From an uncultured bacterium (GTDB taxonomy: Bacteria; Bacillota_I; Bacilli_A; RFN20; CAG-826), in assembly GCA_949291375.1 (NCBI GenBank), contig CASEVI010000002.1:104069-168068 (forward strand): DNA of 64,000 nt, given 5' to 3'. Each line of letters begins with the position of its first letter. Position 1 is the stretch's first letter. Under the pieces are notes generated by a model. It did not search any database. It saw only the letters and a program-made list of their open reading frames with translations, and was not told where the DNA came from. Both the position numbers and the translations under genes were made by a program. This document shows, one piece after another, positions 1,459 through 33,380 of the stretch.

Positions 1459-4413
1459 TTATTCACCTTCAATAGAATCTTCAAAAGGATTATCTACATT
1501 ATAGAAAACTGGTTTATTACCATTATTGGTTGCATTATTAACATTACTAATAGTAGTTTCATCAATAACCAATGTGCACTTATTAGCATCCGTATTAGTC
1601 ATATAAGCATAGATGTATGGGAAATAGAATTCACCATTAGAACCTTCAGCGTCTCTTTCAAAAGTTACATTAGTTAAAGTTAATGATTTATCGTTTGCGT
1701 AGCCAGAAGTTCTATTTTCAGCCCAACGATCTCCTAAAACAATATATCCTAAAGCAACGCTATTTCCATCACCCCAAGCTGTTTTAGAATAATCAACAGA
1801 ATAGGAAGATTTATCGTATTCTTTAATAGAAACTTTACAATCAGTTAAAGTAACATTGCCAGCTCTAACAATTACAGCTTGGTCATCACCACAAATCGAT
1901 GATTTATTAACTTTAACGATGGATGGAATATTAATTAATAAGCCAGTACCCATACTTCCACTTAAAGTTGAATTATTAACATCAACAATAATATTGTAGT
2001 TTTCAACTTTTGATGCATTTGTTGATAAACCAAATGAAACACCTTCGACAGTAGAATTATTGACAACTACTTTAGCGGCATCTCCATTTGGATAAATAGC
2101 ACACGAATCACTTTCGTAAGAAACGTTATCTAAATTTAACGAAGCTCCACTTTGAACAATTAATGCTCCAAGAGATACTCTATTTGGACTTGGATTGCCT
2201 GTACTTGGATCAACATCATAAACAAGACTTCCTTTTTCTTCACTACTACTTGTAATGTTTAATATTTGGCCATTACTTATAGTTGTTGATAAAGTATTAA
2301 TATTTTCCTTTTCATTGTATGTTCCCGTACTTGCGGTTTTAACAGTTAATCTTTTACCATTTAAATCAAGATTTGTTTCTTCTCTACCTTCAACTGGTAA
2401 CTTGCTTGTAGTAGTAACTTCTTTATTTAATTTAAAATATTTAACACCACTAACAACCACATTTTGATTATTCATTAAGGTTAATTGATTTGCATCATCA
2501 ATTAATAATGGATTTTCTTTACTACCATCTCCTCCAGCAAACTTAACTCCTTCAAGAGGTGTTCCTTTTAATACTTTCTTATCGCCATTATTATCCGAAT
2601 AAGTTACTTCACTATAAAGTTGACCATTAATAAAGACGTTTTGAACGGTTTCAACATCTCCTTCAACATTTGCAACTTTAACAAAATTAGATGCTTTTGC
2701 TTCAATTTTTACTCCATTAACACTAACATCTTTTGGATATTTTTCATCCTTAGCAAGTAATTCGAGTTTATCGTATGAATTATTTCCCCAACAAGCATCA
2801 AATACAGCTAATAAACCACCTTTTATAGTTGTAGTTAATCTTCCAGGTTTAGAAATAGTTTCTCCGCTATCTCCTGCTAATGTAGAAACAGTGTCTTCTG
2901 TTTCTACATTATTATACTGATATTCTGTTTTTAAATTATCTTTTGTTAATTTAACTCCATTATGAGTTAAATTATTAACATTAACATCAAAATAAGAAGC
3001 ACTATCTTGAGAAGAGTAAGTTGTTAAATCATTTTGTTGCCATAAATTAAACATGATTACTGGATTTTTGCCATTATCGTTAATGTTTAAATTTTCTAAG
3101 TTTATTGAAACAGACTTATTTTCTGAATTAGTAGTTTTTTCATAATCTGCTAATGTTAAGAAATTAGTTTTACCTTCAAAAGAAGAGTCTTTAATAGTAA
3201 TTGAAGCATCATCAGCAAATTGTTGAGCAGAAATAATTGTTCCAGTTAAACCTTTAACATCTGTATTTGAAATTTCTAAATTTGAAATAGTTGAACTTGT
3301 TAATTGAGTCATTAAAGAAACTCCGCTATCTTTTCCATCATAAGAGACTCTTACATTAGAAAGAGTAATATCACTTGTTTCAGCTTGAATCAAAGTATGT
3401 AAAGCGTTATTTCCCATTGAATCTTTACTAGTTACATCTAAAGATACATTTTCTAATGTTAAAGAACCACCTTTTCTAACATAGGAAATAATATTTTCAT
3501 CTCCATTAAATGAAGTTTCACTTCCTACTTCAGCGCTTAAAGTAATATTAGAAAGTGTTAAATCATCAGATGATGTAATAGAAGATTTGTCTGTTAATGT
3601 TAATTTAGCATTACTTCCATCTTCTTTTTTGCCATCAATAACGACAGGGTTATTATTTGTATTTCCACTAATTTCAATTTTTGAAGCGGTTAAATCTTCA
3701 TTTACATTAACTACAACTGCTTCTCCTTCTGGAGTTCCGGTTGGAACTTCAACTTTTAAAGAACCACCAGTTGTATCAGGAGTTACGGAAGTTGCAACTT
3801 TTCCACTAACGACAAAGCCACCTTCCATCATTTTAATAGCAGTTGTTTCTAAACCAGTATCGCTATAAACAACAGTTCCATTATTTTTAATATCCCAAAC
3901 AAAAGATACATCACCACTTGAATCAGTAGGAACAAAAGTAAATGTAACTTCTTCTCCTACAAGTGCTGAACCTACATTAGAAGTAATATATCCTCCTTCA
4001 ACAGGTAAAATTGTATTTGAATAAGCGGTTTCTCCTGGTTTACCTTGACTTCCAGTTGAGCCATTTAATCCATCTTTTCCATCTTCACCATCTTCACCTT
4101 TAATATTCATTTTTAAAGTCCAACCAGCTTCTTCTTTTTGATAAACATCGCCATTAGTGGTATTTAAATACATATCGCCAACCTTACCTAATGTGTCAGC
4201 TGGTTTAGAAGTTCCGGTTAACCAAGTTGAACCATCTTTCCCATCTTCTCCATCTTCTCCTGGATCTCCTTTATCTCCTTTAGGGCCAGTTTCTCCAGTA
4301 GGACCTGCTGGACCGGTATCTCCTTTATCTCCCTTTTCTCCGCTACAACTACTTAAACCTAATAAACCAATGAGTGTTAAAGCAGTTAAGGATAATAATT
4401 TTGTTTTTTTCAT
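1459..4413 (-). CDS. Collagen-like surface lipoprotein, 984 aa
   Basis: The first residues form a lipoprotein signal (MKKTKLLSL...LSSC, lipobox Cys near residue 23), so the product is expected to be lipid-anchored on the outer face of the membrane. Residues about 25-62 are Gly-X-Y repeats (GDKGDTGPAGPTGETG...), followed by a linker module WLTGTSKPADTLG...GDVYQK, a second Gly-X-Y block (GEDGEDGKDGLNG) and SNTILP. The remaining ~850 residues are rich in Asn/Ser/Thr and short beta strands (LTLSNITL, ISNTDVKGL, LTNVTF), as in parallel beta-helix surface proteins, with a FAGGDGSKENPLLID repeat-start motif around the middle. Two paralogues lie at 4930 and 10473. The start has AGAGG upstream. Binding partner and role are unknown; adhesion or surface variation is inference. 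Confidence 0.85.
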   Translation of the reverse strand: MKKTKLLSLTALTLIGLLGLSSCSGEKGDKGDTGPAGPTGETGPKGDKGDPGEDGEDGKDGSTWLTGTSKPADTLGKVGDMYLNTTNGDVYQKEEAGWTLKMNIKGEDGEDGKDGLNGSTGSQGKPGETAYSNTILPVEGGYITSNVGSALVGEEVTFTFVPTDSSGDVSFVWDIKNNGTVVYSDTGLETTAIKMMEGGFVVSGKVATSVTPDTTGGSLKVEVPTGTPEGEAVVVNVNEDLTASKIEISGNTNNNPVVIDGKKEDGSNAKLTLTDKSSITSSDDLTLSNITLSAEVGSETSFNGDENIISYVRKGGSLTLENVSLDVTSKDSMGNNALHTLIQAETSDITLSNVRVSYDGKDSGVSLMTQLTSSTISNLEISNTDVKGLTGTIISAQQFADDASITIKDSSFEGKTNFLTLADYEKTTNSENKSVSINLENLNINDNGKNPVIMFNLWQQNDLTTYSSQDSASYFDVNVNNLTHNGVKLTKDNLKTEYQYNNVETEDTVSTLAGDSGETISKPGRLTTTIKGGLLAVFDACWGNNSYDKLELLAKDEKYPKDVSVNGVKIEAKASNFVKVANVEGDVETVQNVFINGQLYSEVTYSDNNGDKKVLKGTPLEGVKFAGGDGSKENPLLIDDANQLTLMNNQNVVVSGVKYFKLNKEVTTTSKLPVEGREETNLDLNGKRLTVKTASTGTYNEKENINTLSTTISNGQILNITSSSEEKGSLVYDVDPSTGNPSPNRVSLGALIVQSGASLNLDNVSYESDSCAIYPNGDAAKVVVNNSTVEGVSFGLSTNASKVENYNIIVDVNNSTLSGSMGTGLLINIPSIVKVNKSSICGDDQAVIVRAGNVTLTDCKVSIKEYDKSSYSVDYSKTAWGDGNSVALGYIVLGDRWAENRTSGYANDKSLTLTNVTFERDAEGSNGEFYFPYIYAYMTNTDANKCTLVIDETTISNVNNATNNGNKPVFYNVDNPFEDSIEGE

Positions 4414-4579
4414 AGTTTATACCTATACCTCTAAATAATTATTTTTCAGCATTTAAAAATTGCTGAAAAATGTTTTTCTATGAAAAAAGCCTAAATTAAA
4501 AAAAAAAAAAAAACAAGTCTAGAAACACAAAAATATAACCCTATAAAAAGATAAGGAAATAGACTTGTCACTTATTATA
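4414..4579 (-). promoter_or_regulatory. Structured leader of the 984-aa lipoprotein: -10, stem-loop, 16-nt homopolymer, second hairpin
   Basis: On the minus strand: TATAAT (4579-4574), then the stem ACAAGTCTA (4521-4513 pairs with 4568-4560), a T16 tract (4513-4498), the conserved block AATTTAGGC, a hairpin TTTTTCAGCA/TGCTGAAAAA (4470-4442) and AGAGG before the ATG. The stem plus T-run has the form of an intrinsic terminator inside the leader. The same order and an identical distance (85 nt) between ATG and T-tract are seen upstream of the 1087-aa paralogue. Confidence 0.65.
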
Positions 4580-4645
4580 CATAAGATTAAGAAGATCTTA
4601 ATTAAAAGATAATATCCTTTATAACTTCCTTATTATTCTTATTAC

Positions 4646-4929: not shown

Positions 4930-7014
4930 ATGAAAGAATATAAAACTAAAAAATTAAGATTAATCTCTTTATTAGCTTTAAGTACTATAACTTTATCTTC
5001 TTTAATTAGTTGTAGTTCTATTAAAGGAGATAAAGGAGACACAGGTTCTACTGGTCCAACTGGAGAAACTGGTCCTAAAGGAGATAAAGGAGATCCAGGA
5101 AGTGATGGAAAAGATGGAGAAGATGGTTCATTATGGTTAACAGGAACATCTAAACCAATAGATTCATTAGGTAAAGAAGGAGATATGTATCTTAATACAT
5201 CTAATGGCGATGTCTATCAAAAAGAAGAAAGTGGATGGACATTAAAAATGAATATTAAAGGTGAAGATGGTGAAGATGGAAAAGATGGATTAAATGGTTC
5301 ATCGGGAAGCCAAGGAAGACCAGGAGAAACCGCATGGTCCAATACAATCCTCCCTTCTACTGATGGAGTAATCATTCCTTCTTTAGGAAGTCAAAAGGTT
5401 GGTGAAGATATTACTTTTACTTTTGATTGCGAGTCGTTAGATGAAGCTAATGGCGAAAAAATCATATGGTCAATTATAAATAAAGAAGGCGACACCAAAA
5501 CTTACGAAGGAAAAAGTGTCACTTTAAAAATGGAAGCAGGTGGTTTTGTTGTTAGTGCTCAAAAATCAGTCGGTAACATAACTATCGCAAATAGCGAAAG
5601 TGAATTAAAAGAACAATTAGAAAACTTACAGCCTGGTGAAAATACAATTATTTTAAATGATGAGGTTGAATTGAAAGCTGAAGATATTAGTTCTATTTCA
5701 ACTATGTCAAAAAATGAAATAAACTTATTAAATAATAAAAGAGAAAAATCATCATTAAAAACAGGAAAACTTGAAATTTATAGTTCTGATAATGAAAACG
5801 TTACATTAAATATTTTATCAAATGGTAATAAGAAGAAACTTAAATTCCCATTTTTGACCGTTATTGGAAGTGGTGATGTAGATTTAAGATTTAATAATGT
5901 TGATTTGATCTTAGATTTGGATTTCTCAAATTTAGATGTTAATGAAGCTCTTATATATGGACGCTTCAATTTCATTAATTCTAAAGGAGTGAATAAAATA
6001 TCTTTTAATAATTCAACATTTTCAATTGAACCAAGCAAAGAAATTTTAAATAGCGGTACATATACAATTTTAACTCCAAATTTTATTAATTTTGATGGTA
6101 AAAGTTTAGAATTCAATAATTTTGTCCAAAATAAAAGGTTTTCAAATTCTAGTTGGGGATTTATACAAATGAGTTCAAATGATGGACAGAGTATTTATAG
6201 CAGTTTAGGAAATATGAATAGTAACTTAGAAAGTATAAAAATTAATAATTCCACAATATATACAAGTGTTCCTTTTAATATATCGTCCTTTAGAAATTCA
6301 CTTTCTTTAGATATTAACATCAATAACTCAAGTTTCTATAATTGTAAACCATATAACCGACATATGAGTGATGGTTCTCCCTTAGATTACTTAATGCCTT
6401 TCTTTATGCTAGATATAGATAGAGAAATAAACAAAAATTTTAATGTTAACATCGATATTAATAATGTTTCTTATGGATTATATTGGGATGAACAATTAGA
6501 TGAATTTCCAGTATTTTTAACTGACGGCTCCCCATCAACATTTGTTTTTTATTCTACATTAAATGATAGTTATCGGAACGACGAATACCATAATTTTGAT
6601 GAATCTTTATATGAAAAAATAGACGAACATTTTAATCCTGCTAATGATTTTAATGATCTTTCTTTAAATGATAAAGTAAATATTTCACTTAATAACTTTT
6701 CATTATATGGAGAAAAAATTAATTCATTTGATGGCTTTGAAATACCTCAAGGTGAAAATATATTAAAAACTTATTATTGCGATTCTTGTCAAAAGGATGT
6801 TAATTGTATTGATTATTGTAAAACTTGGAAAGATTTATATACAAAAAGAAATAAACCATTAATAACTTATTCATGGACATTAGATTTTTGTGGACATAAT
6901 ACCAATTTACCTGAAGGAGGCTATATAGGATCTAGTGGAATGTTTATTGATAACTCTTTATATCCATCTTTATCGTTAAATAATAAAAAGATAACTTCTT
7001 TTTATAACTACTAA
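4930..7014 (+). CDS. Collagen-like surface lipoprotein, 694 aa
   Basis: Paralogue of the 984- and 1087-aa lipoproteins. Signal peptide with lipobox LISC (Cys near residue 28), Gly-X-Y repeats, the WLTGTSKP...GDVYQK linker and a second Gly-X-Y block match residue for residue over long stretches, including 56 identical bases shared with the 984-aa gene in inverted orientation. From about residue 150 the sequence diverges: Asn/Ser-rich beta-strand repeats (LSLDININNSSFYN, FNVNIDINNVSYG) and, near residue 615, a Cys cluster (YYCDSCQKDVNCIDYC) plus CGHN that the paralogues lack. Start chosen at the ATG preceded by AGAGAGG. It is divergent from the 984-aa gene. It lacks the poly-T leader seen in the two paralogues. 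Confidence 0.85.
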   Translation: MKEYKTKKLRLISLLALSTITLSSLISCSSIKGDKGDTGSTGPTGETGPKGDKGDPGSDGKDGEDGSLWLTGTSKPIDSLGKEGDMYLNTSNGDVYQKEESGWTLKMNIKGEDGEDGKDGLNGSSGSQGRPGETAWSNTILPSTDGVIIPSLGSQKVGEDITFTFDCESLDEANGEKIIWSIINKEGDTKTYEGKSVTLKMEAGGFVVSAQKSVGNITIANSESELKEQLENLQPGENTIILNDEVELKAEDISSISTMSKNEINLLNNKREKSSLKTGKLEIYSSDNENVTLNILSNGNKKKLKFPFLTVIGSGDVDLRFNNVDLILDLDFSNLDVNEALIYGRFNFINSKGVNKISFNNSTFSIEPSKEILNSGTYTILTPNFINFDGKSLEFNNFVQNKRFSNSSWGFIQMSSNDGQSIYSSLGNMNSNLESIKINNSTIYTSVPFNISSFRNSLSLDININNSSFYNCKPYNRHMSDGSPLDYLMPFFMLDIDREINKNFNVNIDINNVSYGLYWDEQLDEFPVFLTDGSPSTFVFYSTLNDSYRNDEYHNFDESLYEKIDEHFNPANDFNDLSLNDKVNISLNNFSLYGEKINSFDGFEIPQGENILKTYYCDSCQKDVNCIDYCKTWKDLYTKRNKPLITYSWTLDFCGHNTNLPEGGYIGSSGMFIDNSLYPSLSLNNKKITSFYNY

Positions 7015-10472: not shown

Positions 10473-13400
10473 TTATAATTTTTTATAACCTGTAATTAAA
10501 TTATCAGTAATTGTAAATAAATATTTATCTCCAACACCATCGATATCAATATTTTCATATCCATCATTAGGTGTTAAAACTAAATATAATGTATTATCTA
10601 CAATAGCATATGAAACAGTTCCAAATACATTAAATTTATCAATTTCAGTTAGTTGAACATCAGAATGGTCAACAACAAATTCATCGTATTTCATTGTTTC
10701 ATATTTTAAGTCTTTGACATTAACTAAATCACCAGATGATGTATTTAAATCTAATTTTGTTTCAATATCAAAATAATATCTTACACCATTTGATTGATCA
10801 TCACCATTTGGCCAAGTAAGATTGTTTATAGAAAGACCATAGTTCAATCTTGAACCATTATCACTAGAATAACTTGTATAAAATTTACCATCGACTGTTG
10901 AATAATAAACAGCGACATCTCCTGTTTCATCACTTAAATCATTTTTTGAAACAATATTATTAGTAATTGCTTTTGAAGTTTCATCCGCATTAACTTTATT
11001 ATCGTCAAGTCCACAAACCAAACCTTTGTAAGCGTCAGTCATTGAATTTAGGGAGCCATTTAATGAACAATTTTCTAATGTAAAATAAGAGCTTTTATCT
11101 TCGATATTATTCCAGTTTGGACTAGTTACACCTGATGCATTAGAAAATAAATAACCGACTTGATTCATAGCTCCTAATGTGCCGGTGAAACTAGAATTCT
11201 TTATTGTTGTTTTATAATTTGGTGTATAAGGAGAATAACCAAAGAACACTCCAGCACAAGTTCCTGAATTAAAAATATTAAAATTATTAATATTAACGTC
11301 TTCTACTAAAATATTGAAAACTTCATCTGAAGGATGAGCATTGAATAAGGCATTTGGAGTTATAAAACCGAAATTATTAGAATTAACAATTGTTGGCTCA
11401 CCATTACCATTAATGTCTATGTTGGAAATAGTTAAATTTTCAAGAAAACTATAAACATCATCACTGTTATTCCAAGCAACATTAAATAATTTCCCTAATT
11501 TTCCATTTGTTAAATCGATTGTTAAATTTTTAATTTCAACATCTCCATATACATTATTTAAGATAAAAGAGTTTTTACTCTCATCAGCAAAACTTATTTT
11601 ATGCCCGTTTCCATCAATGGATCCCGTGAACCATTCTAAAGAGCTATCAAGTACTAAATCTGCATTAAGTTTATAACTATAACTTTCTTTAGTTAAATAT
11701 TCGGCAGTTGCTTTTGATGTATCAGTTAATTTAGTTACTTCATTAATTAATTTCCATTGATCTAAGTTATCAACTTGTAAAGGATTTTCTGCTGTTCCAT
11801 CGCCTCCAGCAAACTTAACACCATCTACTTTAGTTGATAATGTTTCATCAACACTTCCATCATCTTTTAAATATAGTTCAGAATATAATTGACCATCAAC
11901 AAATGTATTTGTTGATGTAGCTTCAACTCCTTCTACATTAATAATTACATCTTTATTAAACATTTTTTCAGACGGTATTTTGTCATAACTTTCTTTATCA
12001 ATATTTAAAGTGAAAGAATTTTTTTCTGGTGTGTTATCGTATGCGTATAAATAGTAAGTAGGAGTTTCTGTATTTTTTTCATCTGCTAATACGCTCAAAG
12101 ATTCATTAGCGTCTCTATTTTTAATTGTGAGTCCGTCAACATTAACAGTTGAGTCTACTTCTTGATAATTTACGGTATTTGATCTATCTCCCAAAACTAA
12201 AGCAGCGCTAGGTATTTCGTTGCCTGATCCCCAATCACCATTTAAGTAATTATTATTTTTTGTAACTAAAGATGCAAAATTATTAATATTTTCTCCGTAT
12301 TCTATAGTTACATTCTTTAGAGTGACGTTTCCTTGTCTAACAAACATTCCTTGCCTATCACCAGATATAACAGTGTCTTCGATATAAACATTACAAGGAA
12401 TATTAACATATAAACCAGCATTGTCTCCATCATCTGTGTTTGAAGAAATCTCAGAAGAAATAATATTTATTTCTACATTTTGACCTTCGACAGCTGCGTT
12501 TGTTCCAAATCCATAAACACTTGACTCTACTTTAGAATTTAGGATATTTAAAGTAGATGCACTTCCTTCAGCCATTAAGCCACCTTTTGATAATAGCTCA
12601 ACATTATTTAATGTTAAGGTCGATCCATCTTTAACATTTATATCTGCAGAAGTTGTATTTGATGTTTTTAAAGAATTGTCAATAATGCCATTAGAAATTT
12701 CAACATTAGCCCCACCAGAAACAGCATAAGCATTTCCAGAATTTGGAAGATCAACATTATTTTCACCCAAGTTTAAAAATACTTCTTTTTCTTGTCCCGT
12801 TTTCCCTTCAAATAAGTTATTTATAGTGTCGGTATTAATAGTAACTTTATTTTCATTTGAAGATAAACCTTTTGCTAATTCAAAATATTTGGCACCTGTT
12901 TCGGCAATTGATTCTTTTCCTAAAGAATCAATATTATTTATATCATCAATAACTAATGCTGATTCAGCTGTTAAACCATCGCCAGAAGAAAATTTTGGGG
13001 AATCATCGCCAGTTTGAGCTTGCCCTTTTTCTATGACATTTCCAAACGCATCAACTTTTCCACCGGTATATAAGACACCATTTTCAAAATACGAAGTTTT
13101 TCCAACTTTATCAGAAGCTTCAAATTTAGCAGCTACAACAAATCCATTCTTGACCATTGTTGTTTTATAGGAATAAACACCTTCAACTGGTGCATCAATA
13201 TTAGTAATTTTCTCACCATTTAAAATTACTTCTGCAAGTGAATAATTATCATCTGGCTCAAATGTGAAAATAACTTCACTGCCTTCAACAGCGCTTCCAA
13301 GATTTACACCAATGTTTCCACCGGTTGTTGGTAAAATTGTATTTGACCAAGCGGTATCGCCTTTTGGACCGGTTGAACCATTACTTCCATTATGGCCATC

Positions 13401-13736
13401 TTTTCCATCTTCACCATCTTCACCTTGGATATTCATTTTTAATTTCCATCCATCAGCTTCTTTTTGATAGACATCACCATTAGATGTATTTAAGTACATA
13501 TCACCTAATTTACCTAAAGTATCAGCTGGTTTAGTTGTTCCAGTTAACCAAGTTGCACCATCCTCGCCATCTTCTCCATTTTCTCCAGGATCACCTTTAT
13601 CCCCTTTAGGGCCAGTTTCTCCTTGAATTCCTTGATCCCCTTTATCCCCTTTTGGACCTTGAGAAGAACAACTGCTTAAGCCTAAAATTCCAATGAGTGC
13701 TAAAGCAGTTAATGATAATAATTTTGTTTTCTTCAT
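10473..13736 (-). CDS. Collagen-like surface lipoprotein, 1087 aa
   Basis: Largest of the three paralogues. Signal MKKTKLLSLTALALIG with lipobox LSSC, then Gly-X-Y repeats (GPKGDKGDQGIQGETG), the WLTGTTKPADTLG...GDVYQK linker, GEDGEDGKDGHNG, SNTILP and a NYSLAEVILNGEKI...TMVKNGFVVAAKF segment like the beta-grasp repeats of other surface proteins. The rest is Asn/Ser/Thr-rich with many short strands (ITISS, VTLKNVTIEYG, LENLTISNIDING), suggesting parallel beta-helix folds, and the motif FAGGDGTAENPLQVDN near residue 650 is shared with the 984-aa protein. Ribosome site AGAGG precedes the ATG. Exported and lipid-anchored by inference; ligand unknown. Confidence 0.85.
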   Translation of the reverse strand: MKKTKLLSLTALALIGILGLSSCSSQGPKGDKGDQGIQGETGPKGDKGDPGENGEDGEDGATWLTGTTKPADTLGKLGDMYLNTSNGDVYQKEADGWKLKMNIQGEDGEDGKDGHNGSNGSTGPKGDTAWSNTILPTTGGNIGVNLGSAVEGSEVIFTFEPDDNYSLAEVILNGEKITNIDAPVEGVYSYKTTMVKNGFVVAAKFEASDKVGKTSYFENGVLYTGGKVDAFGNVIEKGQAQTGDDSPKFSSGDGLTAESALVIDDINNIDSLGKESIAETGAKYFELAKGLSSNENKVTINTDTINNLFEGKTGQEKEVFLNLGENNVDLPNSGNAYAVSGGANVEISNGIIDNSLKTSNTTSADINVKDGSTLTLNNVELLSKGGLMAEGSASTLNILNSKVESSVYGFGTNAAVEGQNVEINIISSEISSNTDDGDNAGLYVNIPCNVYIEDTVISGDRQGMFVRQGNVTLKNVTIEYGENINNFASLVTKNNNYLNGDWGSGNEIPSAALVLGDRSNTVNYQEVDSTVNVDGLTIKNRDANESLSVLADEKNTETPTYYLYAYDNTPEKNSFTLNIDKESYDKIPSEKMFNKDVIINVEGVEATSTNTFVDGQLYSELYLKDDGSVDETLSTKVDGVKFAGGDGTAENPLQVDNLDQWKLINEVTKLTDTSKATAEYLTKESYSYKLNADLVLDSSLEWFTGSIDGNGHKISFADESKNSFILNNVYGDVEIKNLTIDLTNGKLGKLFNVAWNNSDDVYSFLENLTISNIDINGNGEPTIVNSNNFGFITPNALFNAHPSDEVFNILVEDVNINNFNIFNSGTCAGVFFGYSPYTPNYKTTIKNSSFTGTLGAMNQVGYLFSNASGVTSPNWNNIEDKSSYFTLENCSLNGSLNSMTDAYKGLVCGLDDNKVNADETSKAITNNIVSKNDLSDETGDVAVYYSTVDGKFYTSYSSDNGSRLNYGLSINNLTWPNGDDQSNGVRYYFDIETKLDLNTSSGDLVNVKDLKYETMKYDEFVVDHSDVQLTEIDKFNVFGTVSYAIVDNTLYLVLTPNDGYENIDIDGVGDKYLFTITDNLITGYKKL

Positions 13737-13898
13737 ATTTACTTTAAATTCCTCTTAATATCTATTTTTCATGTTTAAAAACGATGAAAAATATAAATTT
13801 CTACCTAAAAGCCTAAATTTAAAAAAAAAAAAAACAAGTGTTTGGGAGAAAGTTCTTTATACTAATCGCCATTGTTACAGACTTGTGGCACATTTATA
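13737..13898 (-). promoter_or_regulatory. Structured leader of the 1087-aa lipoprotein: -10, stem-loop, 14-nt homopolymer, second hairpin
   Basis: Same layout as the leader at 4414-4579. On the minus strand: TATAAA (13898-13893), stem ACAAGT (13886-13881 with 13839-13834), T14 (13834-13821), AAATTTAGGC, hairpin TTTTTCAT/ATGAAAAA (13791-13765), AAGAGG, ATG. Arm sequences of the second hairpin differ from the first leader but still pair, and the T-tract ends 85 nt before the ATG in both. The tract length differs (14 against 16). Confidence 0.65.
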
Positions 13899-32171: not shown

Positions 32172-33380
32172 ATGAGAAAGAATAAATTGTTAGTTCTTGT
32201 TGGGTTATTTCCTCTTTTAATAAGTAATTCCGCTGCGCCTATTCCTTATATTGGTCATGATGCTCATTATTCAAATTTTAGTGTCAACTCAATTACTGAA
32301 GTTATTGATGAAACTGAAGATGATACACCTATTGAAGATGAAGAACCACCTGAAAGCGATCAAAAAGAAAACGAAGGTGAAAATGAAGGAGAAACAACTC
32401 CAACTGAACCAACAAAAAAAGAAAATTATTTATATACTTTTAATATTACAAACCATGGCTCATATGTAATCGATTCAGAAATTACCTTCATTATTGATAA
32501 AAAGTATGAAGTAACTTTTGTTAATGAATTCTACTCTTACCCTTCAACCGAAGATTTATATATTTTACCTGGTGAAACTAAAGATATAAAATTTGATTTT
32601 AAAGATTATTCATATATTTTTACAGATAATTTTGAATTCACTCCTTATAGTATTACAGGAAAGGAAGCTGACGCTCATCGATATAAAGAAAAGACAGTTT
32701 CAAATTTTGAAATCACTTCACGTATAGTTTCATCCGATTCTTCTTCTACTACTTTTAAAGTTCGTTATGATTTAGAAGAAATGCCTTGGTTTATATTTGT
32801 AGGTTTAAATATTCGTTATTCAAATGATAATAAACTTACCTCAACGTTTTATTCTGATCCAAATGCTTATTATTTAAATAATTCTTTAATTACAGAATTT
32901 ACTTTAGAGGGTGTAAAAAATAGTGCTGATATTAAAACTGTTGACGCAACACTTTATTTAAATGCTAACATTTCACAATCCACTGGATTAACTAAAGAAG
33001 GAAAAGCAGTTATTCTTAGTTTAATTGCAATTCTTTCAGCTTTAATTATTTTTGCACTAGTTTCTTTAATTATTGGTCTTTCCTCTTCTAAAAAAGAAAA
33101 AGAATTATATAAACAAAGAAAGATCGAAGAGGAAGAACGTTTAAAAAAAGAAAAAGAAGAAAAAGAAAGAATAAAAAGAGAGAGAAAAGCTAAAAAAGAA
33201 GAAGAAAAGAGATTGAAAAGAGAAGAAAAAGAAAAAATAAAGAAAGAAAAAGATAAAACTGAAGAAAATTCTTCTAATGTAATAGAAATAGAAACAACAC
33301 AAACTAATGAAGAAAATAATGAACTTTCTACTGATACATTAAAAGAAACCGATCCTCAAAATAATAAAAATAATAACTAA
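32172..33380 (+). CDS. Exported membrane-anchored protein with charged cytoplasmic tail, 402 aa, tandem paralogue 2
   Basis: Signal-like start (MRKNKLLVLVGLFPLLISNSAA), an acidic insert (about 45-85, EDDTPIEDEEPPES...), the same YTFNITNHGSYV core as the preceding gene, then a membrane helix near 280-305. Beyond it lies about 95 residues of alternating Lys/Glu coiled coil (KEKEELYKQRKIEEEERL-like) inside the cell, and an Asn/Thr-rich end. The long charged tail could bind cytoskeletal or cytoplasmic partners, which is inference. AAGGAGGG overlaps the end of the first paralogue. Confidence 0.7.
   Translation: MRKNKLLVLVGLFPLLISNSAAPIPYIGHDAHYSNFSVNSITEVIDETEDDTPIEDEEPPESDQKENEGENEGETTPTEPTKKENYLYTFNITNHGSYVIDSEITFIIDKKYEVTFVNEFYSYPSTEDLYILPGETKDIKFDFKDYSYIFTDNFEFTPYSITGKEADAHRYKEKTVSNFEITSRIVSSDSSSTTFKVRYDLEEMPWFIFVGLNIRYSNDNKLTSTFYSDPNAYYLNNSLITEFTLEGVKNSADIKTVDATLYLNANISQSTGLTKEGKAVILSLIAILSALIIFALVSLIIGLSSSKKEKELYKQRKIEEEERLKKEKEEKERIKRERKAKKEEEKRLKREEKEKIKKEKDKTEENSSNVIEIETTQTNEENNELSTDTLKETDPQNNKNNN

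Follow-up and report, generated by a model that had tools for sequence, protein, structure and literature searches.

Homopolymer tracts as probable promoter-spacer contingency loci of a collagen-stalk lipoprotein family in a genus of uncultured Bacilli

Two lipoprotein genes on the minus strand of a 64,000-nt stretch of DNA (the whole stretch analysed, hereafter the window) are each preceded by a long homopolymer, T16 in leader 1 (upstream of the 984-aa gene) and T14 in leader 2 (upstream of the 1087-aa gene; Table 1). Comparison with homologous leaders in the genus suggests that these T-tracts are probably promoter-spacer contingency loci, of the type known from Mycoplasma hyorhinis vlp, through which a family of lipoproteins with collagen-like stalks would undergo phase variation. 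The tract would form the spacer of a sigma-70-type promoter that drives the lipoprotein gene, with a −35 element beginning TTG before it and a TANNNT −10 element after it. Replication slippage would add or remove T's and alter the spacing of the two elements, and each lipoprotein would be randomly and heritably ON or OFF in a given cell, as in M. hyorhinis vlp. With T14–T17, the elements lie 16–19 nt apart and the promoter could fire; with T7–T9, the distance shrinks to 8–11 nt, at which the promoter is expected to be off. As assembled, the two window promoters have spacings of 17 and 16 nt, which would correspond to the active-length state.

Table 1. Positions of the lipoprotein genes and leader features in the window
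Feature	Position	Strand	Basis or remark
984-aa lipoprotein: signal peptide/lipobox, collagen-like stalk, variable ectodomain	1459..4413	-	Sequence and profile search
1087-aa lipoprotein, same family: lipobox, collagen-like stalk	10473..13736	-	Sequence and profile search
694-aa divergent paralogue	4930..7014	+	Sequence; N-terminus 81% identical, no tract upstream
T16 tract, leader 1 (A16 on + strand)	4498..4513	-	Proposed slippable promoter spacer
Proposed −35 TTGTTT, leader 1	4511..4516	-	Overlaps first three T's; TTG precedes 10/10 usable long tracts
Proposed −10 TAGGCT, leader 1	4488..4493	-	17 nt from TTGTTT; weak, 3/6 consensus bases
5' UTR hairpin ATTTTTCAGCA/TGCTGAAAAAT, leader 1	4441..4471	-	Just past expected start site
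Ribosome-binding-site-like AGAGG, leader 1	4428..4432	-	Sequence
Inverted repeat ACAAGTCTA ... TAGACTTGT, leader 1, 38-nt loop	4513..4568	-	Terminator stem of the sequence-only reading; not conserved
Alternative upstream promoter-like TTAAGA-16-TATAAT, leader 1	4574..4601	-	1 found vs 3.1 in shuffles
T14 tract, leader 2	13821..13834	-	Sequence
Proposed −35 TTGTTT, leader 2	13832..13837	-	Sequence
Proposed −10 TAGGCT, leader 2	13810..13815	-	16 nt from TTGTTT
5' UTR hairpin ATTTTTCAT/ATGAAAAAT, leader 2	13764..13792	-	Sequence and folds

In the sense direction, leader 1 runs from TATAAT (4579–4574) through ACAAGTCTA (4568–4560) and TAGACTTG (4521–4514) into the T16 tract, which is followed immediately by AATTTAGGC and then by a hairpin, AGAGG, and the ATG. 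Leader 2 has the order TATAAA, ACAAGT (13886–13881), CACTTG, T14, AAATTTAGGC immediately 3' of the tract, a hairpin, AAGAGG, and ATG. An earlier sequence-only reading of this DNA had described the T16 and T14 tracts, ATTTAGGC, a second hairpin in each leader, and an equal distance from tract to start codon; all of these are real, and the distance is 84 nt in both leaders. That reading also recognized no known riboswitch, in agreement with an Rfam search in which six matches reached the gathering score in the window and none of the families covered either leader. A search for phage DNA resembling the leader gave no match.

The N-terminal 137 residues of the lipoproteins were found in 11 of 59 relatives (E ≤1e−10) and in 8 of 26 genus genomes (E ≤1e−15). 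We compared the sequences preceding 26 family genes in seven of these eight family genomes (all but G012); L017, whose N-terminus is cut by a contig end, L008–L011, which match over only about 58 residues, L012, and the more distant L019–L022 and L028–L030 were excluded. Ten members have one long T-tract (T14–T17), one (L033) has several T-runs at a contig end, five have short T7–T9 tracts (L013, L024, L036, L018, and L016), two have G10 (L026 and L034, both in G010), one has a TA array (L037 in G021), and seven have no promoter-region tract (L006, L074–L077, L038, and L039), although a T7 is present at the ribosome site of L038 and L039. When L033 was left out of the spacing count, every usable long T-tract (10/10) had TTG before it and TANNNT after it, at 16, 16, 16, 17, 17, 17, 17, 17, 18, and 19 nt, and none of these ten leaders had a TANNNT at 14–15 or 20–26 nt from the TTG. 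In the five short-tract leaders, the elements are 8–11 nt apart or the TTG is lost (L036). The homologous promoters of G010 read TTGCAA-AATCGAG10T-TATTAT (17 nt) and TTGCAA-ACTCAG10TGT-TATTAT (18 nt), and upstream of L037, TTGAAA and TATAAT flank eight TA units at 16 nt (counted by eye). In other words, judged by sequence anatomy, a repeat lies between −35- and −10-like elements at about 17 nt not only in the ten long T-tracts but also in the G10 and TA versions.

Tract length also differs between nearly identical loci. The leaders of L007 (T14, in the window's own genome), L024 (T9, G021), and L036 (T7, G003) are 95–97% identical and their N-termini 99–100% identical, a comparison across three species rather than among strains. 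The proposal of the sequence-only reading that changes in tract length could phase-vary surface proteins is thus well supported by the anatomy, given these T14/T9/T7 leaders, the kept spacing, and the occurrence of G or TA repeats in place of T.

Several observations count against the spacer model. The −10 element of the window's group, TAGGCT, is weak, with three of six consensus bases, and a standard promoter scan did not report it; in leader 1, the scan reported the upstream TTAAGA-16-TATAAT instead. Seven of the 26 family members lack a promoter tract. The tract lengths are bimodal, at 7–9 and 14–17 with none between, a gap that simple one-base slippage does not predict. Other TANNNT candidates, formed by the tract end and the next bases, lie 10–13 nt from the TTG in several leaders, and L093 and its homologue L096 (T14/T15) show no clear fit. 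We considered whether T9 and T16 might bring different −35 elements (NNNACA or TTGTTT) to 17 nt; CTAACA-17 suits L013, but L024 and L018 have poor hexamers, and this dual −35 idea is not claimed. The weak −10 and the lack of a clear spacer promoter at L093/L096, despite their T14/T15, would suit a different role for the tract, that of an A/T-rich upstream or bending element with a graded tuning effect on a promoter elsewhere and no spacer switch. We consider this unlikely, because TTG and TANNNT are kept at 16–19 nt across T, G, and TA repeats and a G-tract is not A/T-rich.

The sequence-only reading had also placed a −10 upstream of a conserved “ACAAGT stem” and suggested that stem and T-tract form an attenuator. 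The TATAAT is indeed present, but promoter matches of this kind occur at chance level (Table 1), and the stem itself did not hold up. In leader 1, ACAAGTCTA/TAGACTTGT forms 9 bp, extendable to 10, with a z of −3.6; the leader 2 stem has 6 bp and a 41-nt loop, is not used by the minimum-energy fold, and has a z of +0.3. At a cut-off of z −2 or below, the stem before the tract was significant in 3 of 15 related leaders, namely L005 (which is leader 1), L032 (z −2.5), and L014 (z −5.8, a different stem). In an alignment of nine leaders, the left arm ACAAGTCTA is constant in L005, L032, and L013, whereas the right arm TAGACTTG changes to AAGACTTG and AACACTTG without compensation. The covariation score was 0.025, and 496 of 500 shuffles scored at least as high. 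Speaking for the stem, pairing persists in 73.7% of cells, against 32–53% in slid versions. A terminator scan of leaders 1 and 2 found none in either. For attenuation, transcription would start at the upstream TATAAT, which is common to L013 and L032, and the ACAAGTCTA/TAGACTTGT hairpin with the U-tract would end the transcript early, tract length or an antiterminator setting the read-through. The stems of leader 1, L032, and L014 agree with such a mechanism, but 12 of the 15 leaders, leader 2 among them, have no significant stem, the loop is long (38–41 nt), and no stable stem directly before the U-tract is kept in the homologues. Furthermore, G and TA repeats at the same place cannot act as a terminator U-tract, judged from their sequence, although they can act as spacers. 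Together with the uncompensated right-arm changes, the covariation score below its shuffles, and the negative terminator scan, this makes attenuation improbable, and we rejected a terminator or attenuator as the main reading. A tract that does resemble part of an intrinsic terminator occurs elsewhere in the genus, at L143 (G019:C4:62430), where a strong inverted repeat lies directly before T17.

In the promoter-spacer reading, transcription would start a few bases past TAGGCT, and because this start lies just after the tract, the tract is proposed to be untranscribed and the second hairpin would be near the 5' end of the mRNA. As had been claimed, this hairpin has a different sequence in each leader and yet can pair in both, over 11 bp (leader 1) and about 9 bp (leader 2). 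Single-sequence folds predict this stem in all nine close-group leaders, with only modest departure from shuffles (z −3.6 to 0.0). MAFFT did not align the two stem types in register, so the hairpin is described here from these folds and from a single compensatory change in L031, C-G to T-A, noted by eye. Its position suggests a stabilizing role, which may be regarded as a guess.

The lipobox and collagen-like stalk of the encoded proteins suggest that the tracts precede surface-exposed products. In L007 and L024, the leaders are 97% and the N-termini 100% identical, but their next 150 residues match over only 42; that stretch of L024 instead resembles L005 (58% over 151 residues) and L036 (95%). 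Similarly, L014, L023, and L031, all from one genome, have N-termini 98–99% identical, and their next 150 residues show no match or at most 39% identity. Since the leaders and N-termini are alike and the downstream residues are not, the putatively switchable front end is joined to different ectodomains. Mosaic genes with a near-identical leader and N-terminus on unrelated or differently related ectodomains comprise the window genes at 1459–4413 and 10473–13736, L013, L014, L023, L024, L031, L032, and L036. The leader and N-terminus might mainly be a recombination platform for ectodomain swapping, the tract being a by-product or breakpoint, as the near-identical front ends of L007/L024 and of L014, L023, and L031, with their divergent or unrelated following domains, could suggest. 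As a sole explanation this seems very unlikely, because it leaves unexplained the kept spacing and the G and TA repeats at the same place in other species; recombination and phase variation can both hold together. Elsewhere in the window, a low-complexity A/G-rich repeat array lies at 33090–33267 within the ORF at 32172–33380.

Besides T16 and T14, the longest A or T run in the window is 9 nt. With P(T|TTT) and P(A|AAA) taken from the window itself, the expected numbers are about 25 runs of at least 9 (3 found), about 4.2 of at least 11 (2 found, i.e., no excess), and 0.30 of at least 14 (2 found). As runs of at least 11 are no commoner than expected, what stands out is not their number but the absence of lengths between 9 and 14. 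On both strands of the whole 1.29-Mb genome, there are three T-runs of at least 11, against roughly 85 extrapolated from the window, and all three precede secreted or surface genes in the sense direction, indicating that long runs are strongly depleted in this genome except before such genes. Two are the window leaders, and the third (L093, G000:C1:6187–6200) is a T14 followed at 93 nt by a 210-aa gene whose product has a signal-like sequence at its N-terminus. Homologues of L093 from other species are preceded by tracts of T, G, or C.

Among the 26 genus genomes, 12 contain T-runs of at least 11, 38 in total. Of the 16 such runs in G000, G002, G003, G021, and G023, 14 precede surface or secreted genes and are in the sense direction, three of these belonging to the L033 leader; of the remaining two, L147 is at a contig end and L148 falls within an ORF. 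The remaining 22, in G001, G005, G011, G013, G014, G019, and G025, are mostly elsewhere, and only L096 clearly fits. The T-tract association therefore holds for the lipoprotein-family genomes and not for the whole genus; three genomes with the family (G010, G012, and G015) have no T-runs of at least 11. Some long T-runs fall within apparent ORFs of fragmented assemblies (G005, G013, G014, and G023; L088, L089, L097, L105, L145, L148, and others), either as real frameshift sites or as assembly artefacts. MutL (PF01119) was detected in none of the 26 genus genomes, and MutS domain I (PF01624) in one (G012, two weak hits), whereas the same searches were positive in 11 of 14 control genomes. As some of the genomes are incomplete, mismatch repair appears rather than is certain to be absent; its absence would raise homopolymer slippage and could explain the purging of long runs elsewhere.

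Poly-G tracts of at least 8 nt occur in 18 of the 26 genus genomes (G makes up 11% of the window). We scored all 46 tracts in both orientations (92) as promoters with the tract in a 15–19-nt spacer, using matrices based on the textbook consensus and 200 flank shuffles as the null. Twelve reached a score of at least 9, compared with 0.95 expected and a maximum of 4 in the shuffles; all 12 were on the G strand and TTGACN-TATAAT-like. Anchoring the set on the nearest TTG gave a muddied profile, in which no single spacing had more than 4 of 17, since that TTG is in many cases not the −35; two-element scoring was used instead. Genes downstream of the poly-G promoters include pilin-like proteins (N_methyl domain) and a secreted-looking family with a GSGFSAWYF-type signal, which may resemble TasA/SipW-type signals. 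For the latter family, we compared 11 tracts in 10 genomes, of T (2), G (7), or C (2); 10 of the 11 are within 110 nt of the start codon, the G10 of L124 being 180 nt away. At L125 (G000:C2:227449), TTGACT and TAAAAT flank a G10 at a spacing of 16 nt, and a 69-aa ORF containing repeats follows after 41 nt.

Other poly-G tracts are intragenic, for example at the start of lipoprotein-like genes and in a type I restriction specificity gene. At L082 (G000:C3:23097 and 25003), two tracts lie just inside small ORFs, where G9 keeps a 115-aa frame open and G10 puts a 116-aa frame out, like the ON and OFF states of translational phase variation. A G9 is located inside the genes of L116 (G001) and L123 (G016), of which the former matches a type I restriction specificity subunit, making a phase-variable methylation system possible.

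Taken together, these results raise a broader interpretation to which we give an even chance: that this whole genus of uncultured Bacilli, with hardly any mismatch repair detected in it, possesses a multi-locus repertoire for phase variation in which the place of the repeat, the promoter spacer, is fixed, its type turns over among T, G, C, and TA, and the leader with the collagen-stalk N-terminus is an exchangeable cassette on unrelated ectodomains. Different repeat types at one spot in homologous promoters offer a comparative test of selection on spacer length versus repeat identity. A search of titles and abstract openings in open-access PMC found no literature on phase-variable collagen-like lipoproteins in uncultured Bacilli. 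A 2025 review names as a major open question why genomes rich in phase-variable loci are seemingly restricted to pathogens, and whether this reflects database bias (PMC11868660); the presence of such loci in an uncultured genus, at collagen-like lipoproteins, pilin-like proteins, and other secreted proteins, would bear on that question as posed there.

By sequence anatomy, the window loci resemble three known systems. The vlp genes of M. hyorhinis encode a surface lipoprotein family with poly-A in the promoter region, and changes in its length switch transcription (PMC10502178). The present family likewise has a promoter-region homopolymer at each gene, but differs in having coding-strand poly-T, not poly-A, collagen-like stalks, and G or TA repeats in relatives, and its switching is predicted from anatomy. 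The vmm gene of Mycoplasma mycoides SC, a surface protein gene, has a dinucleotide repeat in its promoter spacer (PMC10502178); the repeat of L037 is similarly placed between −35 and −10, whereas the window genes have a mononucleotide tract. In Streptococcus pyogenes R28, the T-tract between Spy1336 and Spy1337 gives little or no transcript at 9T and abundant transcript at 10T (PMC7098570). That tract, too, is a T homopolymer upstream of a surface-protein gene, but it belongs to one divergent gene pair and is mostly 9 or 10 T long, whereas here a paralogous family has T14–T17. Finally, the collagen-like Gly-X-Y stalk on a surface protein recalls Scl1/SclA and Scl2/SclB (NCBIfam NF038330 and NF038329), although the present proteins score far under the cut-offs of those families and are lipoproteins, not LPXTG-anchored proteins.
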